NCBI GenBank assembly: GCA_902636165.1
Contig: CACPQV010000003.1
Span: 1 to 42,163, forward strand
DNA length: 42,163 nt
Reading direction: 5' to 3'
Source of the DNA: an uncultured Pelagibacteraceae bacterium
Lineage (GTDB): Bacteria; Pseudomonadota; Alphaproteobacteria; Pelagibacterales; Pelagibacteraceae
Position 1 is the stretch's first letter. Each line of letters starts with the position of its first letter. The notes beneath the pieces were generated by a model. It was not told where the DNA came from. It saw only the letters and a program-made list of their open reading frames with translations, and ran no database searches. The translations under genes were made by a program, and so were the position numbers. Positions 4,638 through 42,163 of the stretch are shown in pieces.

Positions 4638-5384
4638 TTATTTAATTAACTTTGCAATTTTAATTAATCCTTTAATTGTGATATCTTTATTTTGTATTAC
4701 ACGAGTCTTTAAAGATTTTCTAAACAAATCAGAGTAACCACCAGTAATTACAAGTTTGAAAGATTTTCTTGTTTCTTTCTTAATCAAATTAATAATATTG
4801 TCAATTAGTCCTATATAGCCCCAAAAAAAACCTGAACGGACTGCCGAAATTGTGTTGTTGCCAACTATATTTCTTATCTTCTTTAAATCTATTTGGGGTA
4901 TCAATGAGGCTTTATCAGACAAAGTATCAAGCGATATTTTTACTCCAGGGGCTATTATGCCACCTCTATAATATTTTTTTTCAACTACATCAAATGTGGT
5001 GGCAGTACCAAAATCTAAAATTATAAAATTGTTTTTACCGTTTTGTAGACTAATTGCATTAGCTAAACGATCTGAACCAGCCTGTTTATAATTAACTTTG
5101 ATTTTAATTAATGAACTCAAATTAAGATTTTTAATTTCATAACATCTAATTTTAGTTTTTTTATGAAAATATTTTTTAATCAAATTAAAAGATTTTGGTA
5201 CAACACTACAAAAAAGGATTTTCTCAACTTTTTTAATATCTTTAATCAAAAATTTAATTTTTTTGTCCAAATTTTTATTATTGATATTTTTTGAAATTAA
5301 ACTTGTTCTTTTTAAAATTCTATCTTTTTTGTTGACTAAAAATATCTTTGTATCTGAATTTCCAATATCGCCCAAAATATACAT
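4638..5384 (-). CDS. coaX: Type III pantothenate kinase
   Basis: DIGNSDTKI, GSDRLANA, DFGTATTFD and GGIIAPGV motifs. Confidence 0.92.
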   Translation of the reverse strand: MYILGDIGNSDTKIFLVNKKDRILKRTSLISKNINNKNLDKKIKFLIKDIKKVEKILFCSVVPKSFNLIKKYFHKKTKIRCYEIKNLNLSSLIKIKVNYKQAGSDRLANAISLQNGKNNFIILDFGTATTFDVVEKKYYRGGIIAPGVKISLDTLSDKASLIPQIDLKKIRNIVGNNTISAVRSGFFWGYIGLIDNIINLIKKETRKSFKLVITGGYSDLFRKSLKTRVIQNKDITIKGLIKIAKLIK

Positions 5385-5388
5385 ATGA

Positions 5389-5931
5389 CTATTTATTTTT
5401 TTTATGTTTATAAATCTCTAAATTTTTTTCAAAAATTTTTTTCAATTGTATCTCAATATTTCTTTTTGAAATTTTTTTGTTAATTAAATCATTTAAATTA
5501 GTAGTTGGATAGTTGCTAATTATAGGGTTTTTTATCAAATTAATTCCAACTCCAAGTATTAAAAATTTTTGATTTTGTTTATTTATTATCTCTTGGAGAA
5601 TTCCACAAATTTTTTTTCCTTTAATTAACAAATCATTTGGTTTTTTATAAACAATTCTTTTTTTGTAATATTTTGAAATTAGTTTTTTTACTAATATACA
5701 ATTTAATTTTGTTATTTTAGTTAAATTTAAATCCATATTTTCTAAATTATAAAAAAAACTTACAAATAAATTTCCTTTAAATGAAATCCATTTTCTTCCG
5801 TACTGCCCACGTCCATTACTTTGGCTGTCAGCAATTATCATTCCATAATTTAAATTGGAACTTTTAACCATTCTTATGGCTGTATCATTCGTACTTCTTA
5901 ACTTTTTAAATCTTAAAATTCTAAATTTCAT
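5389..5931 (-). CDS. birA: Biotin--[acetyl-CoA-carboxylase] ligase (minimal, catalytic domain only)
   Basis: NGRGQYGRKW and NDLLIKGKKICGIL motifs; 180 aa, no N-terminal HTH. Confidence 0.88.
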   Translation of the reverse strand: MKFRILRFKKLRSTNDTAIRMVKSSNLNYGMIIADSQSNGRGQYGRKWISFKGNLFVSFFYNLENMDLNLTKITKLNCILVKKLISKYYKKRIVYKKPNDLLIKGKKICGILQEIINKQNQKFLILGVGINLIKNPIISNYPTTNLNDLINKKISKRNIEIQLKKIFEKNLEIYKHKKNK

Positions 5932-7349
5932 TAAATTATGTTAATTCTGGAAACTACCTCTATTAATTGGCTCGGAAATATAAAGTATATCAGAATTAAC
6001 AATGTAGATGCTGTTAAAGAAAATTTTAACCAAAAACCATGATCAGTATCATATTTTTCTTTTTGCTCATCAAAATACATAATTTTAATTAACCTTAAAT
6101 AATAAAAAGCTGCAACGACTGTTGATAATAAACCAACGATTGCTAAAAAATACATTGATTGTTCAATGACTGCTTTAAAAACATAAAACTTAGCAAAAAA
6201 ACCAGCTAAAGGAGGAATCCCAGCTAGTGAAAATAAAATTATTAGTAATGATAACGCTAGCATTGGATGATTTTTAGATAAACCTGACAAATCATCTATT
6301 TTTTCGTAATAGTTATTGTCTCGTTTCAACATTAACAAGCATGAAAATAATCCTAAGTTCATTAGTATATATATGTTTATATAAATTACTGAACTTTGAA
6401 TGCCATCATTAGTACCTGCCGCTACACCAGCTAGAGCGTAACCAACATGACCTATGGAGCTATATGCAACAAGTCTTTTCAAATTTGTTTGTCCTATGGC
6501 TGCAATAGCACCAAATAGCATTGATGCGATCGATAAAAAAATTAAAATCATTTGCCACTGATCAATCAGATTTAAAAATGGTACATATAAAAATCTAATA
6601 AATACTGTCAATGCTGCTATTTTTGGAACCATTGTAAAAAATAATGTCACTGAAGTTGGTGAACCTTCGTAAACATCTGGGGCCCACATATGAAAAGGAA
6701 CAGCAGAAATTTTAAATGCTAGTCCTACTAAAATAAATACAATACCAAATGTTAAAGCATACTCATTAGAGTTCAATTGATCAGCTATTACATTAAAGTT
6801 GGTAGAGCCTGTAAACCCATATATTAAAGAGCAACCATATAGCAATAAACCAGAGGATAAAGCACTTAAAACAAAATATTTAAGTCCCGCTTCAGAAGAT
6901 TTGATTTGATCTCTATTGAATGTTGCTAAAACATATAAAGCCAATGACTGAAGCTCAAGACCCATATAAAATACTATTAAGTCATTAGAATTAATCATAA
7001 CCATCATTCCTAATACAGAACTTAAAATTAATATTGGATACTCAATCTTAAAGATTTGAAAAGTTTTAAGATAGTTCGAAGAAATGATTAGGACTAAGAA
7101 AGCTGCCAATAAAGTGATTATCTTCATTAAAGAAGATAAATAATCAATAATAATACTATTATTAAATAATTTTGTTTCGTTTATACCAATTGTTTCATTA
7201 AAAGTAATAACAGCGGTTATAATCAAAACAGCTAAAGAGAGACTCTGAACAAGTCTTGAGCTATTTTTTTTAAAAACACCTAATATTAATAAAAACATTA
7301 TCGACAAAGATAAAAATATTTCGGGTAATACTAATTGTAAATTTTCCAT
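5931..7349 (-). CDS. nuoN: NADH-quinone oxidoreductase subunit N
   Basis: 472 aa proton-pumping Nuo antiporter-like subunit, terminal in nuo order. Confidence 0.95.
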   Translation of the reverse strand: MENLQLVLPEIFLSLSIMFLLILGVFKKNSSRLVQSLSLAVLIITAVITFNETIGINETKLFNNSIIIDYLSSLMKIITLLAAFLVLIISSNYLKTFQIFKIEYPILILSSVLGMMVMINSNDLIVFYMGLELQSLALYVLATFNRDQIKSSEAGLKYFVLSALSSGLLLYGCSLIYGFTGSTNFNVIADQLNSNEYALTFGIVFILVGLAFKISAVPFHMWAPDVYEGSPTSVTLFFTMVPKIAALTVFIRFLYVPFLNLIDQWQMILIFLSIASMLFGAIAAIGQTNLKRLVAYSSIGHVGYALAGVAAGTNDGIQSSVIYINIYILMNLGLFSCLLMLKRDNNYYEKIDDLSGLSKNHPMLALSLLIILFSLAGIPPLAGFFAKFYVFKAVIEQSMYFLAIVGLLSTVVAAFYYLRLIKIMYFDEQKEKYDTDHGFWLKFSLTASTLLILIYFIFPSQLIEVVSRINII

Positions 7350-19985: not shown

Positions 19986-20062
19986 TGGTGGGCAGTAAAG
20001 GACTCGAACCTTTGACCCCCTCGGTGTAAACGAGATGCTCTACCAACTGAGCTAACCGCCCA
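19986..20062 (-). tRNA. trnV: tRNA-Val(TAC)
   Basis: TGGGCGGTTAGCTCAGTTGGTAGAGCATCTCGTTTACACCGAGGGGGTCAAAGGTTCGAGTCCTTTACTGCCCACCA; anticodon loop TTTACAC, encoded CCA. Confidence 0.94.
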
Positions 20063-20126: not shown

Positions 20127-20183
20127 AAAGATAATTTTTTAAAATCCACCCCTCCAATTATTTTTGGAGTTAAAATTATCTTT
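20127..20183 (-). repeat. Nested inverted repeat / candidate transcriptional terminator downstream of lon
   Basis: Outer arms AAAGATAATTTT (20127-20138) and AAAATTATCTTT (20172-20183); inner arms CTCCAA (20052+100..: 20152-20157) and TTGGAG (20164-20169). Confidence 0.55.
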
Positions 20184-20258
20184 CTCTATTTTAGAGGTTG
20201 GTCTCGTAAGATAGTAAGTTACAAAAATTACTAAAATCAAAATTATGAATAGTTCCAT
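20139..20258 (-). CDS. Unlisted 39-aa single-TM microprotein (family A, copy 1)
   Basis: MELFIILILVIFVTYYLTRPTSKIEKDNFNSKNNWRGGF*; ATG starts 8 nt after the lon stop; same length and motif register as the ORF at 40619-40738. Confidence 0.6.
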   Translation of the reverse strand: MELFIILILVIFVTYYLTRPTSKIEKDNFNSKNNWRGGF

Positions 20259-20266
20259 AAATAATT

Positions 20267-22645
20267 TTATTGAATGCTTGCTTGAGATTTATCGTCTTTT
20301 TTAGAAAGATCGACTTCAACCCATTCAGTTTTTTTAAGCTCTTTTGTTAAAGCAATTTTTAAAACTTCATCTGCAAATTCAACAGGTGTAATTTTTATCT
20401 CATCAATTATTTTTTTTGGCATATCAACAAGGTCTTTTTCATTTTCTTTAGGAATCAAAACCTGTTTAATACCTGCTCTGTGAGCAGCTAAAAGTTTTTC
20501 CTTTAGACCGCCAATTGGTAAAACTTGACCAGTCAAAGTCACTTCACCAGTCATCGCCACATCCTTCCGAACAGGAATATTGGTTATAGAAGAAACTATT
20601 GAAGTAACCATTCCAATTCCAGCCGATGGACCATCCTTTGGTGTTGCCCCCTCAGGAACATGAATATGAAAATCTTTTTTTTCAAAAATTGGAGGAATTA
20701 TTCCATATTCTAAACATTTTGATCTTACAAAAGATTTTGCTGCTTTGACAGACTCTTGCATAACGTCACCTAATTTACCTGTAATTTGCATTCTTCCTTT
20801 ACCTGGCATGGTAACAGTTTCAATTTTTAAAATTTCACCTCCATACTCAGTCCATGCAAGACCTGTAACGATACCAATTCTATTTTCACTTTCTAACTCT
20901 CCAGATTTAAATTTTGGAACACCCAAAAAATCAGCAAGATTTTTATTATTAACATCTACTTCTTTTTCCTCACCTGAGACAACTTTTTTTACAACTTTTC
21001 TGGCAACTTTGGAAATTTCTCTTTCGAGGTTTCTTACACCAGACTCTTTTGTATAACTTCTTATAATTTCTTTGATAATGTCGTCACCTAATTTCATTTC
21101 TTTTTCTTTAACCCCATTATCTTTAATTTGTTTTGGAAGTAGATATTTATTAGCTATATTTATTTTTTCATCCTCAGTGTAACCTGCTAATCTTATGACT
21201 TCCATTCTATCTAATAAAGGTGGTAAAATATTTAAAGTATTCGCGGTAGTTACAAACATAACGTCTGATAAATCATAATCAACTTCTAAATAATGATCAT
21301 TAAAAGATGTATTTTGTTCTGGATCTAAAGCCTCAAGTAAAGCTGAAGAAGGATCTCCTCTATAATCATTTCCGATTTTATCAATTTCATCTAATAAAAT
21401 TAAAGGATTTTTTGTGCCAGCTTTTTTCATCATCTGGATTATTTTACCAGGCAGAGAGCCTATGTAAGTTCTTCTGTGGCCTCTTATTTCAGCTTCATCT
21501 CTCATACCGCCTACGGACATTCTCACAAATTCTCTATTTGTAGCTTTTGCAATTGACTTACCTAATGAAGTTTTTCCTACTCCTGGAGGACCAACTAAAC
21601 ATAAAATTGGTCCTTTAATTTTATCCATCCTTTTTTGAACAGCTAAAAACTCAATAATTCTCTCTTTTACTTTTTCCAAACCGAAATGATCCTTGTCCAA
21701 AATATTTAAAGCCTTTGTTAAATCTATATCTATTTCGCTTTTTTTGTGCCAAGGAAGTTCGGTCATCCAGTCTAAATAATTTCTTACCACAGTAGCCTCT
21801 GCAGACATCGGACTCATATTTTTTAATTTTTTAAGTTCTTGAAGACATTTTTTTTCAACTTCTTTTGGCATTTTTGCTTTAAGTATAGCTTTATTTAAAC
21901 TTGTACTTTCATCTTTACCGTCTTCTATTTCACCTAATTCTTTTTGGATAGCTTTTAATTGTTCATTTAAATAATATTCTCTTTGAGTTTTTTCCATTTG
22001 GGTTTTAACTCTGCCTCTTATCCTTTTTTCTACTCCAATAATACTTGTCTCATTTTCCATAATTTTAATTATTAGATTAAGTCTTTTTTTAACGTCAGCA
22101 GTTTCAAAAATTTGTTGCTTTTCAGATATTGTAGCAGATATGTGTGAAGCAATATTATCAGCAATTTGGGATGGGTCTTTTAGGTCTTTGATTGTGCTTA
22201 TAGTCTCACTTGAAATTTTTTTATTTATGGAAGTCAATTTTTCTAATCTTCTTACAGCAGTGGCTGCTAAAGGATACAAATCTTCTTTATTCTCAATAAC
22301 ATCATTGTAAGATGTATAATCACAATTTATATACTTGTCGTTATCTTTGAAGTCTAATATTTTCACTCTTCTTACACCCTCAACCAAAACCTTTACTGTT
22401 CCGTCTGGCAATTTAAGAAGTTGTAAAATATTTCCCTCACATCCATACATAAATATATCAGTCTTTTTGGGATCATCGATCTCTGAATTTTTTTGAGTAA
22501 CAAGTATAATTTTTTTCTCTTTTTTCATTACCTCATTCAATGCTAAAATAGACTTATCCCTTCCAACAAATAGAGGAATTACCATACTTGGAAATACCAC
22601 AATATCTCTTAATGGTAATAATGGTGATGAAATTTTAACGTCCAT
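20267..22645 (-). CDS. lon: ATP-dependent protease La
   Basis: 792 aa, GPPGVGKTSLGKSIA Walker A, EGATPKDGPSAGIGM catalytic Ser. Confidence 0.97.
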   Translation of the reverse strand: MDVKISSPLLPLRDIVVFPSMVIPLFVGRDKSILALNEVMKKEKKIILVTQKNSEIDDPKKTDIFMYGCEGNILQLLKLPDGTVKVLVEGVRRVKILDFKDNDKYINCDYTSYNDVIENKEDLYPLAATAVRRLEKLTSINKKISSETISTIKDLKDPSQIADNIASHISATISEKQQIFETADVKKRLNLIIKIMENETSIIGVEKRIRGRVKTQMEKTQREYYLNEQLKAIQKELGEIEDGKDESTSLNKAILKAKMPKEVEKKCLQELKKLKNMSPMSAEATVVRNYLDWMTELPWHKKSEIDIDLTKALNILDKDHFGLEKVKERIIEFLAVQKRMDKIKGPILCLVGPPGVGKTSLGKSIAKATNREFVRMSVGGMRDEAEIRGHRRTYIGSLPGKIIQMMKKAGTKNPLILLDEIDKIGNDYRGDPSSALLEALDPEQNTSFNDHYLEVDYDLSDVMFVTTANTLNILPPLLDRMEVIRLAGYTEDEKINIANKYLLPKQIKDNGVKEKEMKLGDDIIKEIIRSYTKESGVRNLEREISKVARKVVKKVVSGEEKEVDVNNKNLADFLGVPKFKSGELESENRIGIVTGLAWTEYGGEILKIETVTMPGKGRMQITGKLGDVMQESVKAAKSFVRSKCLEYGIIPPIFEKKDFHIHVPEGATPKDGPSAGIGMVTSIVSSITNIPVRKDVAMTGEVTLTGQVLPIGGLKEKLLAAHRAGIKQVLIPKENEKDLVDMPKKIIDEIKITPVEFADEVLKIALTKELKKTEWVEVDLSKKDDKSQASIQ

Positions 22646-37683: not shown

Positions 37684-38450
37684 TGTTCTTAAAAAAATAT
37701 AATCTTCAAAATAAAACTGCAGTAGTTACTGGCGCAGGCAAAGGAATTGGAAGAGCATGTGCTATTGCACTTGCTGAAGCAGGAGCAAATTTAATTATCA
37801 TAAGTAGAACTAAAAAAGATTTAGATAGCGTGTCGAAGGTAATTAAGAAATTTAAATCAAAATGTAAATCATATGTTTGTGACATAACTAATTACAATGA
37901 GATTAGTATTATAATTAACAGGCTCCCAAAAATTGACATCTTAATTAACAATGCAGGAAATAATATTCCAGAACACTTTACAAAAGTGAAAACAAAAAAC
38001 ATGGAATATCTTGTCAAGATTAATACTATTGCAACTTTTAACCTTGCTCAATTATGTGCTTTAAAAATGATTAAGTCAAAAAATAGAAAAAAAATCGGTG
38101 GTTCAATTGTAAACATGTCTTCTCAAATGGGTCATGTCGGAGGACCTATAAGAAGTGTGTACAATATGACAAAATTTGGTTTAGAAGGTCTTACAAAAGG
38201 AATGTCCATTGATCTTGCAAAATATAATATAAGGGTAAATACTGTTTGTCCTACATTTGTTGTAACTCCAATGACGAAAAAATTTTTAAAAAGTAAAAAA
38301 TTTAAAAAAGAAGTTTTAGGCAATATACCACTTGGAAGATTTGCTGAGTTGTCTGATGTAGCTTCTGCTGCTGTCTTTTTAGCATCCGATGCGGCTTCGA
38401 TGATAACAGGAACTTCATTATTGGTTGATGGTGGATGGACTGCAAAATAA
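37683..38450 (+). CDS. SDR family oxidoreductase
   Basis: TGAGKGIGRA, NNAGN, YNMTK motifs. Confidence 0.9.
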   Translation: MFLKKYNLQNKTAVVTGAGKGIGRACAIALAEAGANLIIISRTKKDLDSVSKVIKKFKSKCKSYVCDITNYNEISIIINRLPKIDILINNAGNNIPEHFTKVKTKNMEYLVKINTIATFNLAQLCALKMIKSKNRKKIGGSIVNMSSQMGHVGGPIRSVYNMTKFGLEGLTKGMSIDLAKYNIRVNTVCPTFVVTPMTKKFLKSKKFKKEVLGNIPLGRFAELSDVASAAVFLASDAASMITGTSLLVDGGWTAK

Positions 38451-39241
38451 TATCTAAAATAATATTCTTTATAATTCTTTCTTCTATAACACAACTTAAG
38501 GCTGTTGAGTTTAAAGGTAAATTTCTACAAGGACATTACATAATTGGTTTAACTGATCCAAAAGCACAAATACTTATTGGAAAGAAAAGAGTAAAAGTTT
38601 CAAATGACGGATATTTTGTATTTGGAATAGACAGAGATAGAAAGTTTGATGTAACTATTACAAAAATTCTAAATGGGAAAAAAGAAAAAATAATCAAAAA
38701 AGTTTTAAAAAGAAAATATAATATTCAAAGGATCGACGGCTTGGAAGAAAGTAAAGTTACTCCACCTGAGTCAGTCTATAAAAGGATAAAAGAGGAAAAT
38801 AACAGAATTGGAAAAGCAAGAGCAATAAACTCTGATTTACCCTTTTTTAAAAACCAATTTATTATGCCAGTTGATGGTATCATTAGTGGTGTTTATGGAA
38901 GTCAAAGAATTTTGAATGGTAAACCTAAATGGCCTCACTACGGAATTGATATTGCTGCAAAAAAAGGGACGATGATTAAATCATCTGCCTCTGGCACTGT
39001 GACTATGGCTGAAGATGATTTGTATTACACTGGTGGTACAATTATAATGGATCATGGTCATGGTATTTCTACAATTTATTCACATCTTGAAAATGTAATG
39101 GTTTCTGTTGGAGATGAAATCAATCAAGGGGATATTATTGGAACTGTTGGATCCACTGGTAGATCTACAGGCCCGCACTTAGATTTTAGGGTAAATTGGT
39201 TTCAAACAAGGCTTGATCCAATGTCCTTGTTAAATTTATAA
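38435..39241 (+). CDS. M23 family metallopeptidase (HLD variant)
   Basis: HYGIDIAAKKGT and TGRSTGPHLDFRVNW motifs, N-terminal signal-like segment. Confidence 0.85.
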   Translation: MDCKIISKIIFFIILSSITQLKAVEFKGKFLQGHYIIGLTDPKAQILIGKKRVKVSNDGYFVFGIDRDRKFDVTITKILNGKKEKIIKKVLKRKYNIQRIDGLEESKVTPPESVYKRIKEENNRIGKARAINSDLPFFKNQFIMPVDGIISGVYGSQRILNGKPKWPHYGIDIAAKKGTMIKSSASGTVTMAEDDLYYTGGTIIMDHGHGISTIYSHLENVMVSVGDEINQGDIIGTVGSTGRSTGPHLDFRVNWFQTRLDPMSLLNL

Positions 39242-39246
39242 AATGA

Positions 39247-39402
39247 ATGTTGATTTTTGAAAAATTTAAAAATTTTTTGTCTAAAAGCAAATGGGGAAGA
39301 TATATCTTAGTAGGCGGCTTTACTTTTTTTTTAATTAAAGGGTTGGTTTGGCTAGTAATTTTTTTAATTGCTGGTTTTAGTTTGATAAATTTTGGATCAT
39401 AA
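39247..39402 (+). CDS. 51-aa membrane protein (not in supplied ORF track)
   Basis: MLIFEKFKNFLSKSKWGRYILVGGFTFFLIKGLVWLVIFLIAGFSLINFGS*; amphipathic N-terminus plus hydrophobic region. Confidence 0.6.
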   Translation: MLIFEKFKNFLSKSKWGRYILVGGFTFFLIKGLVWLVIFLIAGFSLINFGS

Positions 39403-39416
39403 AATATAATCATTCA

Positions 39417-39845
39417 ATGGAAGTTGAGAATCAAAATAATTCTGAATTTAAAGTAGTAGGTTTAACAATGGAAAAACTATCTATTTATTATGGGATATTT
39501 TTAATTTTATGGGGAGTAATAGTTAGTTTTATTAGTGGAAGTGGCTCAATGACTTCGTATATTCCATCTATTTTAGGAGTTCCGATTTTAATTTTTTCAT
39601 ATCTTTCAATTAAATTTGTTTCTAAGAAAAAAATGTTTATGCATATTGTAGTATTGTTTGGATTAATCATTTTTTTAGGTGGTCTTGATTTTATTAGATC
39701 ATTAATTACTGGGAATGCTTTTAGTAATTTCTATGCTGACTTATCAAAAATAATGATGATGATAACTGGTTTATTTTTTACTTATCAATGTATTAGATCA
39801 TTTATTCATGCGAGAAAAATTAGAGAAATAGGTAGTGTTGAATGA
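39417..39845 (+). CDS. Hypothetical multi-TM membrane protein
   Basis: 142 aa, about four hydrophobic segments; overlaps the next gene by 4 nt. Confidence 0.6.
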   Translation: MEVENQNNSEFKVVGLTMEKLSIYYGIFLILWGVIVSFISGSGSMTSYIPSILGVPILIFSYLSIKFVSKKKMFMHIVVLFGLIIFLGGLDFIRSLITGNAFSNFYADLSKIMMMITGLFFTYQCIRSFIHARKIREIGSVE

Positions 39846-40615
39846 GTAAATTGTTAGAGAAAACCTCTAATAAACTTGTAAAAGCATTTCTTAAAAGTAA
39901 GATTATTGCTCCAATTCCATCTAAATACACAAAAAAACTTCATGAGGCTCAAAAATTAAGAAAATTATGCGAAAGCAAAATTAAATTACCGGTCATAGGC
40001 TTTAAAGCTGCTGGTACAGGAATACCTTTAATTAAAAAGTTTAAAGAAAAAGAACCCTTTTATGCCTCAGTTTATAAAAGAAATTTTTTGAAAAGTGGCA
40101 AAGGTGTAAAAATAAATAAAGCTACTTTAGGAATTGAACTAGAGGTTTGTTATAAAATCAAAAAATCTTTTTTTTCTTCTAAAGGATCAGTCACAATGAA
40201 AAATATATCTAAATATATTTCACATATGGCACCTTGTATTGAAGTAGTTGGTTATAGACAAAGAAAAAAAGGAATTACCTCATTTGGTGATTTATGCAGC
40301 GATTTTGGTGCAAATGTAAAGTTTTTAGTTGGAGCAACAAAAAGATATAAAAGAATTAATATTGGTAATTTAAAAACAAATATTTCAAATAAAAAAGTAA
40401 ATCAAAGTGTAAATGGTAATACAAATACTGTTTATATTAACCCACTAAATTCACTAAGATTTGTATTAAGTAAAGTCAAAAAAGATAAAATAAATCTAAA
40501 TAAAGATTTTTGGGTTTTTACTGGTTCCTCAGTGGGAGTTGTTCCAATTAAGAGTAAAGGTCTTTATATTGGTAAAATTGATAAATTGGGAACAGTCAAA
40601 ACAATGATAAAATAA
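39842..40615 (+). CDS. 2-keto-4-pentenoate hydratase-like protein (FAH-type fold)
   Basis: KLRKLCESKIKLPVIGFKAAGTG, LGIELEVCYKI, FVFTGSSVGVVPI-like hydratase pattern. Confidence 0.65.
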   Translation: MSKLLEKTSNKLVKAFLKSKIIAPIPSKYTKKLHEAQKLRKLCESKIKLPVIGFKAAGTGIPLIKKFKEKEPFYASVYKRNFLKSGKGVKINKATLGIELEVCYKIKKSFFSSKGSVTMKNISKYISHMAPCIEVVGYRQRKKGITSFGDLCSDFGANVKFLVGATKRYKRINIGNLKTNISNKKVNQSVNGNTNTVYINPLNSLRFVLSKVKKDKINLNKDFWVFTGSSVGVVPIKSKGLYIGKIDKLGTVKTMIK

Positions 40616-40618
40616 AAC

Positions 40619-40738
40619 ATGCAAACATTAATTCTACTGGCTTTGGTAATTGTTATTGCTTGGGTATTATTCAGGCCTTTTACTAAAAATGAAATTGATA
40701 AATACAATGATAAAAACTGGCCAGATATGAATTTTTAA
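40619..40738 (+). CDS. Unlisted 39-aa single-TM microprotein (family A, copy 2)
   Basis: MQTLILLALVIVIAWVLFRPFTKNEIDKYNDKNWPDMNF*; same length and motif register as the ORF at 20139-20258. Confidence 0.65.
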   Translation: MQTLILLALVIVIAWVLFRPFTKNEIDKYNDKNWPDMNF

Positions 40739-40743
40739 AGATC

Positions 40744-42163
40744 CTAAGAAATTAAAGAGGGTTGTTTTTTCATATCCTCTTTTTTGATACCAGCAACTCT
40801 CACTGGTTTTTTCATAGCATCTCTTCTAAAAGGTTCGCCTAGCTCTTGATTAAGAATTATCTCAATAAATGTTGTAATTCCTTTTTTTTGGTCTTCACAA
40901 GATTGTTTAATTGCAGCTGTTGTCTCCTCCATCGTTTTAACAGTAACCCCTTTTAATCCGCAAGCATCAGCTACTTTTGCATAGCTTAATTCTGGATCTA
41001 ATTCCGTTCCAATAAAATTATTATCGAACCAAAGAGTAGTATTTCTTTTTTCAGCACCCCATTGATAATTTCTAAAAATTACCATGGTAATTGCTGGCCA
41101 CTCTTTTCTTGCGCATGAGCTCATTTCATTCATACTTATTCCAAATGCACCATCTCCAGCAAAGCCAATTACTGGTGTATCAGGACAACCTATCTTAGCG
41201 CCCAAGATCGATGGAAAACCATAACCACAAGGACCAAATAAACCTGGAGCTAAATACTTTCTAGGTTTTTCAAAAGTAGGATAAGCATTTCCAATTGCAC
41301 AGTTATTTCCAATATCACTTGAAATAATTACATCTTCAGGCATTCCAGCTTGGATTGCTCTCCATGCTTGCCTTGGTGACATTCTATCTTTATCTCTTTC
41401 TCTTGCCTCTTTATTCCAAACCGTTCCCTCATCGTCATCCTCATGATCTAAACTTGATAATTTTTGTAACCAAGCAGATTTTGTTTGGTGAATTAAATCT
41501 TTTCTTTTTTGTCTATCAGTATCTCCGGCATCTGGAGATAATTTTTCTAAAATCTGTGTCGCCACTAATTTTGCATCACCACTAATTCCAACCGTAACTT
41601 TTTTTGTTAAACCAATTCTATCAGGATTCATGTCCACTTGGATAATGCTTGCATCCTTAGGCCAATAATCAATTCCATATCCTGGGAGTGTTGAAAAAGG
41701 ATTCAATCTAGTTCCTAATGCTAAAACAACATCAGCTTTTGAAATTAGTTCCATTGCAGCTTTAGATCCATTGTATCCTAATGGTCCCACTGCAAGTGGA
41801 TGACTTCCAGGAAAGCTATCATTGTGTTGATATCCTGAACAAACTGGTGAGTCTAACTTTTCAGCAAGTTTTTTTGTTTCTTCAATTGCACCACCAATAA
41901 CAACTCCTGCTCCAGATAAAATAACAGGAAATTTAGCTTTAGATAAAAGTTTTGCAGCTTTATCTATTGCCTCAGCACCCCCACCTTGTCTTTCTAATCT
42001 AACAATCGGTGGTAATTCAACATCTATAACTTGTGTCCAGTAATCTCTTGGTACATTTATTTGTGCTGGTGCTGAACCCCTTATTGCTTTTTCTATCACT
42101 CTATTCAACACCTCAGCCATTCTTGATGGGTCTCTAACTTCTTCTTGGTAGCAAACCATATCT
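40744..42163 (-). CDS. xsc: Sulfoacetaldehyde acetyltransferase (partial, N-terminus beyond window end)
   Basis: ThDP-enzyme; GFAGDGAFGISMNEMSSC...NYQWGAEKRNT typical of Xsc; frame open to the window edge. Confidence 0.88.
   Translation of the reverse strand, partial: DMVCYQEEVRDPSRMAEVLNRVIEKAIRGSAPAQINVPRDYWTQVIDVELPPIVRLERQGGGAEAIDKAAKLLSKAKFPVILSGAGVVIGGAIEETKKLAEKLDSPVCSGYQHNDSFPGSHPLAVGPLGYNGSKAAMELISKADVVLALGTRLNPFSTLPGYGIDYWPKDASIIQVDMNPDRIGLTKKVTVGISGDAKLVATQILEKLSPDAGDTDRQKRKDLIHQTKSAWLQKLSSLDHEDDDEGTVWNKEARERDKDRMSPRQAWRAIQAGMPEDVIISSDIGNNCAIGNAYPTFEKPRKYLAPGLFGPCGYGFPSILGAKIGCPDTPVIGFAGDGAFGISMNEMSSCARKEWPAITMVIFRNYQWGAEKRNTTLWFDNNFIGTELDPELSYAKVADACGLKGVTVKTMEETTAAIKQSCEDQKKGITTFIEIILNQELGEPFRRDAMKKPVRVAGIKKEDMKKQPSLIS

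Follow-up and report, generated by a model that had tools for sequence, protein, structure and literature searches.

The reading frame at positions 20139..20258 of the minus strand, here called sORF A, is a real gene under purifying selection, and that selection is concentrated in the charged C-terminal tail of the 39-aa protein it encodes (MELFIILILVIFVTYYLTRPTSKIEKDNFNSKNNWRGGF). Small single-pass membrane proteins are a known kind, and this one represents a new family among them; the unusual part is its mobility. The window, by which we mean the whole stretch of 42,163 nucleotides analyzed, belongs to a 661-kb assembly of an uncultured Pelagibacteraceae bacterium that comprises 50 contigs and is 55% complete. 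The original prediction for this DNA had described an unannotated family of small membrane proteins with more than one copy per genome. Both the orthologue searches and the dN/dS values presented below bear it out, the latter showing purifying selection. The same prediction had taken the position of the gene as a pointer to its function, and that part is not supported.

Two Homologous 39-aa Reading Frames

The gene order around sORF A is lon stop, 8 nt, sORF A, tRNA-Val, tRNA-Asp, and nuoA, which places it between lon and nuo as had been claimed. The lon protease gene (20267..22645, minus strand; TIGR00763, PRK10787) lies immediately upstream, and tRNA-Val (19986..20061, minus strand) is the downstream border of the insertion site. 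A second frame, sORF B (40619..40738, plus strand; MQTLILLALVIVIAWVLFRPFTKNEIDKYNDKNWPDMNF), begins 3 nt past a 2-keto-4-pentenoate-hydratase-like gene (39842..40615, plus strand; sub-cutoff NCBIfam matches) and ends 5 nt short of a convergent xsc-like sulfoacetaldehyde acetyltransferase gene (40744..42159, minus strand; TIGR03457, 745.6 bits), which in several relatives delimits the B site on its 3′ side. An M23 peptidase gene (38435..39241, plus strand; PF01551) bounds the variable region containing sORF B on its 5′ side. In the relative represented by locus L043, among others, sORF B directly follows the M23 gene; in the window, a variable insert (39247-40615) with ORFs of 51, 142, and 257 aa separates the two.

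Both frames start with ATG and encode 39 aa. A 39-aa ORF by itself means nothing, because the window has 228 ORFs of at least 30 aa; it is homology that carries the claim. An ungapped alignment of the two proteins has identical residues at 16 of 39 positions, two of which (I5 and L17) come in addition to those first listed. The BLOSUM score of this alignment is 66, as against a mean of −1.8 (sd 12.6, maximum 60) for shuffles of sORF B that preserved the composition of the hydrophobic transmembrane half and the charged tail half separately, and none of 20,000 such shuffles reached 66. The distance of about 20 kb between the two genes was likewise given correctly, and a spacing of approximately 19-20 kb is kept in several relatives (e.g., G060, G036, G067, G133, G180, and G274). 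A third candidate in the same genome (on contig C13, E = 0.11) lacks the family motif and was rejected.

Selection on the Tail

Within the family we observed four sequence types, which differ at the C-terminus. Type A, to which sORF A belongs, ends in RP[TI]SKxE[KE]xxF[ND][SD]K[ND]NWRGGF; type B, the M23/xsc-region type of sORF B, in RPxxKKE[LI]DRYNDKDNW[SP][ND]M[GDN][FL]; type C, of about 47 aa, in KPSxxE[IL]xKFxxKxQDxxNWSxMGF; and type D in ELERYEDKHNWTSLGGC. Common to the types are a hydrophobic segment some 17 residues long, a proline on or close to its boundary, a glutamate (E25 in type A), an aromatic residue (F/Y29), a tryptophan near the end, and a fixed C-terminus. Every one of 85 distinct 39-aa type A proteins ends in NWRGGF, and P20, E25, K32, N34, W35, R36, G37, G38, and F39 are invariant among them. 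The AlphaFold model (mean pLDDT 79) has a helix at residues 2-18 and a shorter one at 23-30, and its end is loose. Residues 2-18 would form a single membrane helix and, by the positive-inside rule, the tail would be cytoplasmic.

Values of dN/dS, calculated as medians of Nei-Gojobori counts, are far below 1: 0.22 (tail 0.10) among 45 distinct lon-linked sequences, 0.10 (tail 0.04) among 49 fabI-linked sequences, and 0.09 (tail 0.06) among 20 sequences of the window's close clade, so that sORF A and its orthologues span 0.09-0.22 overall and 0.06-0.10 in the tail. The sets linked to fabI and lon give 0.04-0.10 for the tail and 0.16-0.36 for the transmembrane half. These figures bear on the suggestion that the frame is not a gene and owes its conservation to a DNA or RNA element located where operons end. 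Copies are always intergenic, and in several genomes they lie near tRNA or tmRNA genes, as such an element might. However, synonymous sites vary and nonsynonymous sites vary far less in two separate sets (pS 0.44-0.45 versus pN 0.07-0.14); length, ATG, and stop are preserved over all 85 distinct type A sequences; and the DNA upstream of the frame differs between sites. The codon pattern refutes a noncoding element, and we can give that reading hardly any credence.

Distribution and Resemblance to Known Proteins

Orthologues of both A and B are present across relatives. In a single-sequence search of 200 genomes of the genus, A-like copies appeared from 90% identity downwards, nearly always with an unbroken frame, and the sORF B query recovered a separate set of orthologues with identities of up to 84%. 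Broken frames are confined to isolated copies in two genomes, G012 and G281. The former, a complete genome of 1.34 Mb, has an in-frame TGA right after NNW, with loss of the last four residues (L062, C1:378144-378260). A profile search found members in 77 of 113 near-complete genomes of the genus and in 98 of 149 of the order, every listed one within Pelagibacteraceae, the window's own family, and a sample of 289 genomes of the class (Alphaproteobacteria) yielded no members outside it. Named records with members are all SAR11. About a third of the near-complete genomes are without a recognizable member, and the function must therefore be dispensable in some lineages.

No model in Pfam or NCBIfam matches above cutoff, and PHROGs gave weak matches only. 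The best match to a PDB sequence (E 0.12, to mitochondrial ATP synthase protein 8) was judged to be due to chance. No description of the family was found in the literature searched.

Among the known proteins closest to it is CcoQ/FixQ (PF05545), the small subunit of cbb3 cytochrome oxidase, in which a single transmembrane helix likewise leads via FRP into a short charged tail, and one may ask whether the SAR11 protein is a comparable structural subunit of a respiratory complex. PF05545 is among the two commonest weak Pfam matches of the family and is the strongest, with weak profile similarity over the part from the transmembrane helix to RPxxK in 14 of 33 members (best E 1.7e-5); one fabI-linked member scores 22.8 bits (E 8.8e-5). 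Yet the matches seen in detail all fall below the 29-bit Pfam gathering cutoff and stop soon past the RPxxK boundary, leaving the NWxxGF tail outside the matched stretch, and sORF A itself has no PF05545 match. Nor are the genes linked to an oxidase: no ccoN/O/P or other oxidase genes were recognized in the flanks examined (about 160 loci at lon, fabI/pnp, M23, and hydratase/xsc; the other 47 were clustered and the commonest clusters read by eye). The family is, moreover, absent from a third of near-complete genomes. We regard a structural subunit of this sort as improbable.

Occupied and Empty Sites

Depending on the species, the family stands behind lon, fabI, pnp, the M23 peptidase gene, the hydratase-like gene, or tmRNA. 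Type A copies are found mainly at two places: 64 loci lie behind lon, and 75 lie in the gap between the convergent fabI and pnp genes, where 54 share the orientation of fabI and 21 that of pnp. Some species are entered twice in these counts, and the fabI-pnp gap also holds one B-type copy (L092). Either site can be empty. The lon-tRNA-Val gap is often about 50 nt in relatives that lack a lon copy versus 206 nt in the window, where it holds sORF A; the fabI-pnp gap can be as short as 42-52 nt when empty versus 140-142 nt when occupied, and in many genomes it carries other cargo. None of the fabI-type genomes in which the end of lon could be read has a copy there, and none of the lon-type genomes in which fabI was found has an intact copy at fabI; G281 has an intact lon copy and a broken fabI copy. 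Since intact copies at lon and fabI exclude one another in the genomes read, a single type A copy seems to suffice for a genome.

On a tree of lon, the lon-site label requires at least three changes on well-supported branches and 13 on the best tree. These changes represent repeated gain, loss, or recombination, and branch support is too weak to order the events. Nothing links the gene specifically with lon or nuo, for elsewhere the same family stands behind unrelated genes. The proposal that its location points to regulation of those complexes is not supported on this account, and also in view of the many relatives in which the lon site is empty and the third of near-complete genomes that have no member.

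The start codon lies 7-17 nt past the stop of lon and mostly 3-20 nt past that of fabI, a closeness that suggests cotranscription with the upstream gene. This arrangement bears on a further reading, that the protein is a type I toxin-like hydrophobic membrane peptide restrained by an antisense RNA. The small size, the single transmembrane segment, the several chromosomal copies, and the restriction to one lineage would all suit such a toxin. A start so near the stop of a housekeeping gene leads one to expect joint expression instead; by eye, the ORF alone is common to the lon and fabI copies, with no conserved flanking DNA to accompany it; and the conserved charged tail is long. Taken with these features, a toxin seems to us quite improbable.

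tmRNA-End Repeats and Islets

In several genomes, the final bases of the tmRNA gene recur as an additional copy beside B-type sORFs. The 21-mer core of that end, with at most two mismatches, has no more than four occurrences per genome, one of which, in G060, G117, G133, G100, G067, and G036, stands about 10 nt past the sORF. A 25-mer with up to 6 mismatches lies within 400 bp of 19 members; with 8 mismatches allowed, it has no occurrence in 609,650 bp of other SAR11 DNA (80 named A-type loci). Its preferred offsets are directly past the stop, about 80 bp before the start, and about 360 bp after the start. At the last of these, a second small gene intervenes, encoding a 68-aa secreted protein (AFAGSCPMM...GDHAKSEELLKKALELFKS) with weak TPR similarity. 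This gene stands 9-36 nt behind a B-type sORF on the same strand in 10 genomes (L057, L059, L107, L113, L115, L118, L124, L131, L132, and L133), and the two genes are likely to constitute a cassette. At two loci (L297 in G060 and L313 in G133), sORF B is separated from xsc by a carbamoyltransferase gene and two small ORFs, a stretch that starts at a tmRNA-end repeat, and the sORF ends in MH, not MNF/MNL.

In four genomes (G094, G346, G303, and G353), at least two repeats stand behind the tmRNA gene itself and delimit small blocks; the sORF is either within these or immediately next to them. Small islets delimited by direct repeats of the tmRNA 3′ end (GGGGCACCTGGCAACAGAACGCCCC) stand behind tmRNA genes at L301-L304, L306, and L307 (G204, G094, G346, G303, G344, and G353); they have a thyX/mrp-like side and a mazG-like/fumarate-hydratase-like side, both named by eye, to their left and right or the reverse. 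In G344 (L305, C1:114000-128500), about ten paralogues of a secreted protein of approximately 190 aa (MKKLLAIIILSLCF...IRDFQIEGISIGDSLL) follow one another with tmRNA-3′-end repeats interspersed, one of which is fused to a tRNA-like 3′ end.

The layout resembles that of the ssrA-specific genomic islands of Dehalococcoides, in which tandem blocks of cargo lie behind a tmRNA gene and are delimited by direct repeats of its 3′ end (PMC2764846). The SAR11 islets differ in being only about 0.5-5 kb long, with one to a few genes. None of the 10 proteins scanned from islets and related loci was recognized as an integrase, and copies of the repeat are also found well away from tmRNA, immediately behind a sORF. 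The literature searched yielded no paper on tmRNA islets in SAR11. We infer that the islets move by site-specific recombination. A viral origin of the repeat was considered and rejected: all eight viral contigs with an exact copy carry a phage tmRNA there, and none has a bare attachment site.

The window, its own two copies included, has no att-like tmRNA-end repeat with up to three mismatches. Since the repeats adjoin B-type members and not these copies, an islet route for type A is an extrapolation. Degenerate repeats (6 mismatches) occur near the fabI-pnp gap in G003 (L367, position 1464) and G201 (L385, position 2317), where the sORF is absent, a hint that the gap serves as a secondary site of integration.

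A small membrane protein carried on islets might serve phage exclusion, blocking phage entry or DNA injection in the manner of prophage superinfection-exclusion proteins. Its patchy presence, its place among the cargo of tmRNA-end islets, and the several gains or losses of sites are what one would expect of such a factor, and one islet (L302) also has a gene (5198-6805, minus strand) whose trypsin-like domain is related to the protease portion of the RT-Protease_XI defence models (E 1e-22). The tail, however, is extremely conserved and not diversifying, unlike the expectation for most exclusion factors; no relatives were found among 50,697 phage records or, by profile-guided pattern and tblastn, in IMG/VR viral contigs; and no defence gene was noticed when the gene context of the lon and fabI copies was read. 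We consider phage exclusion unlikely, if worth keeping in mind.

Discussion

Small regulatory membrane proteins such as CydX, AcrZ, MgtS, and KdpF are around 50 aa or less, with a single transmembrane segment and a short tail. The SAR11 microprotein shares the small size, the single predicted transmembrane segment, and the short tail, and sORF A combines purifying selection with a predicted membrane helix. Those proteins have a known complex, whereas the SAR11 microprotein relocates and has no sequence match in Pfam or NCBIfam. The protein may regulate some membrane complex, as the original prediction had supposed.

The account that we favor, at about even odds, is that sORF A encodes an accessory single-pass membrane microprotein whose cytoplasmic tail binds a host partner, and that the family is spread by gene cassettes and expressed via host operons. 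An accessory role is suggested by the third of near-complete genomes without the family, by the relocation of the gene, and by the early in-frame stop in the G012 copy; a role driven by the tail is suggested by the concentration of selection there. The sORF A product would be held in the inner membrane by its helix, with the positively charged RPxSKxE... tail in the cytoplasm. The tail would be the working part, a docking peptide of the form [RK]P-x2-K-x-E-x3-[FY]-x2-K-x-N-W-x2-G-F-COOH that may bind and modulate one membrane-associated host protein or machine; the window has no recognized partner gene. Expression would come from the operon ahead of the gene, here that of lon. A minimal cassette would account for the spread and relocation of the family across SAR11, in part through islets that exploit the tmRNA 3′ end. 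Alternatively, the conserved tail could serve membrane insertion, oligomerization, or as a degron.

In a larger context, we speculate, with considerable doubt, that SAR11 harbors an undescribed class of relocating one-gene microprotein cassettes of its own, partly on tmRNA-3′-end islets and lodged a few nucleotides behind housekeeping genes, which would let a genome keep one working copy of a membrane-tethered tail peptide of strong ecological benefit (e.g., phage exclusion or control of a membrane protease).

SAR11 are the most abundant marine bacteria, and their genomes are a textbook case of streamlining. In such genomes, a 120-bp gene that is strongly selected, repeatedly relocated, and present in no family library searched amounts to an annotation gap. 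With two mutually exclusive sites, empty counterparts of both, and repeats of the tmRNA end, the family is a tangible starting point for studying the movement of very small genes in streamlined genomes, and its invariant tail could be used directly as bait for the partner.
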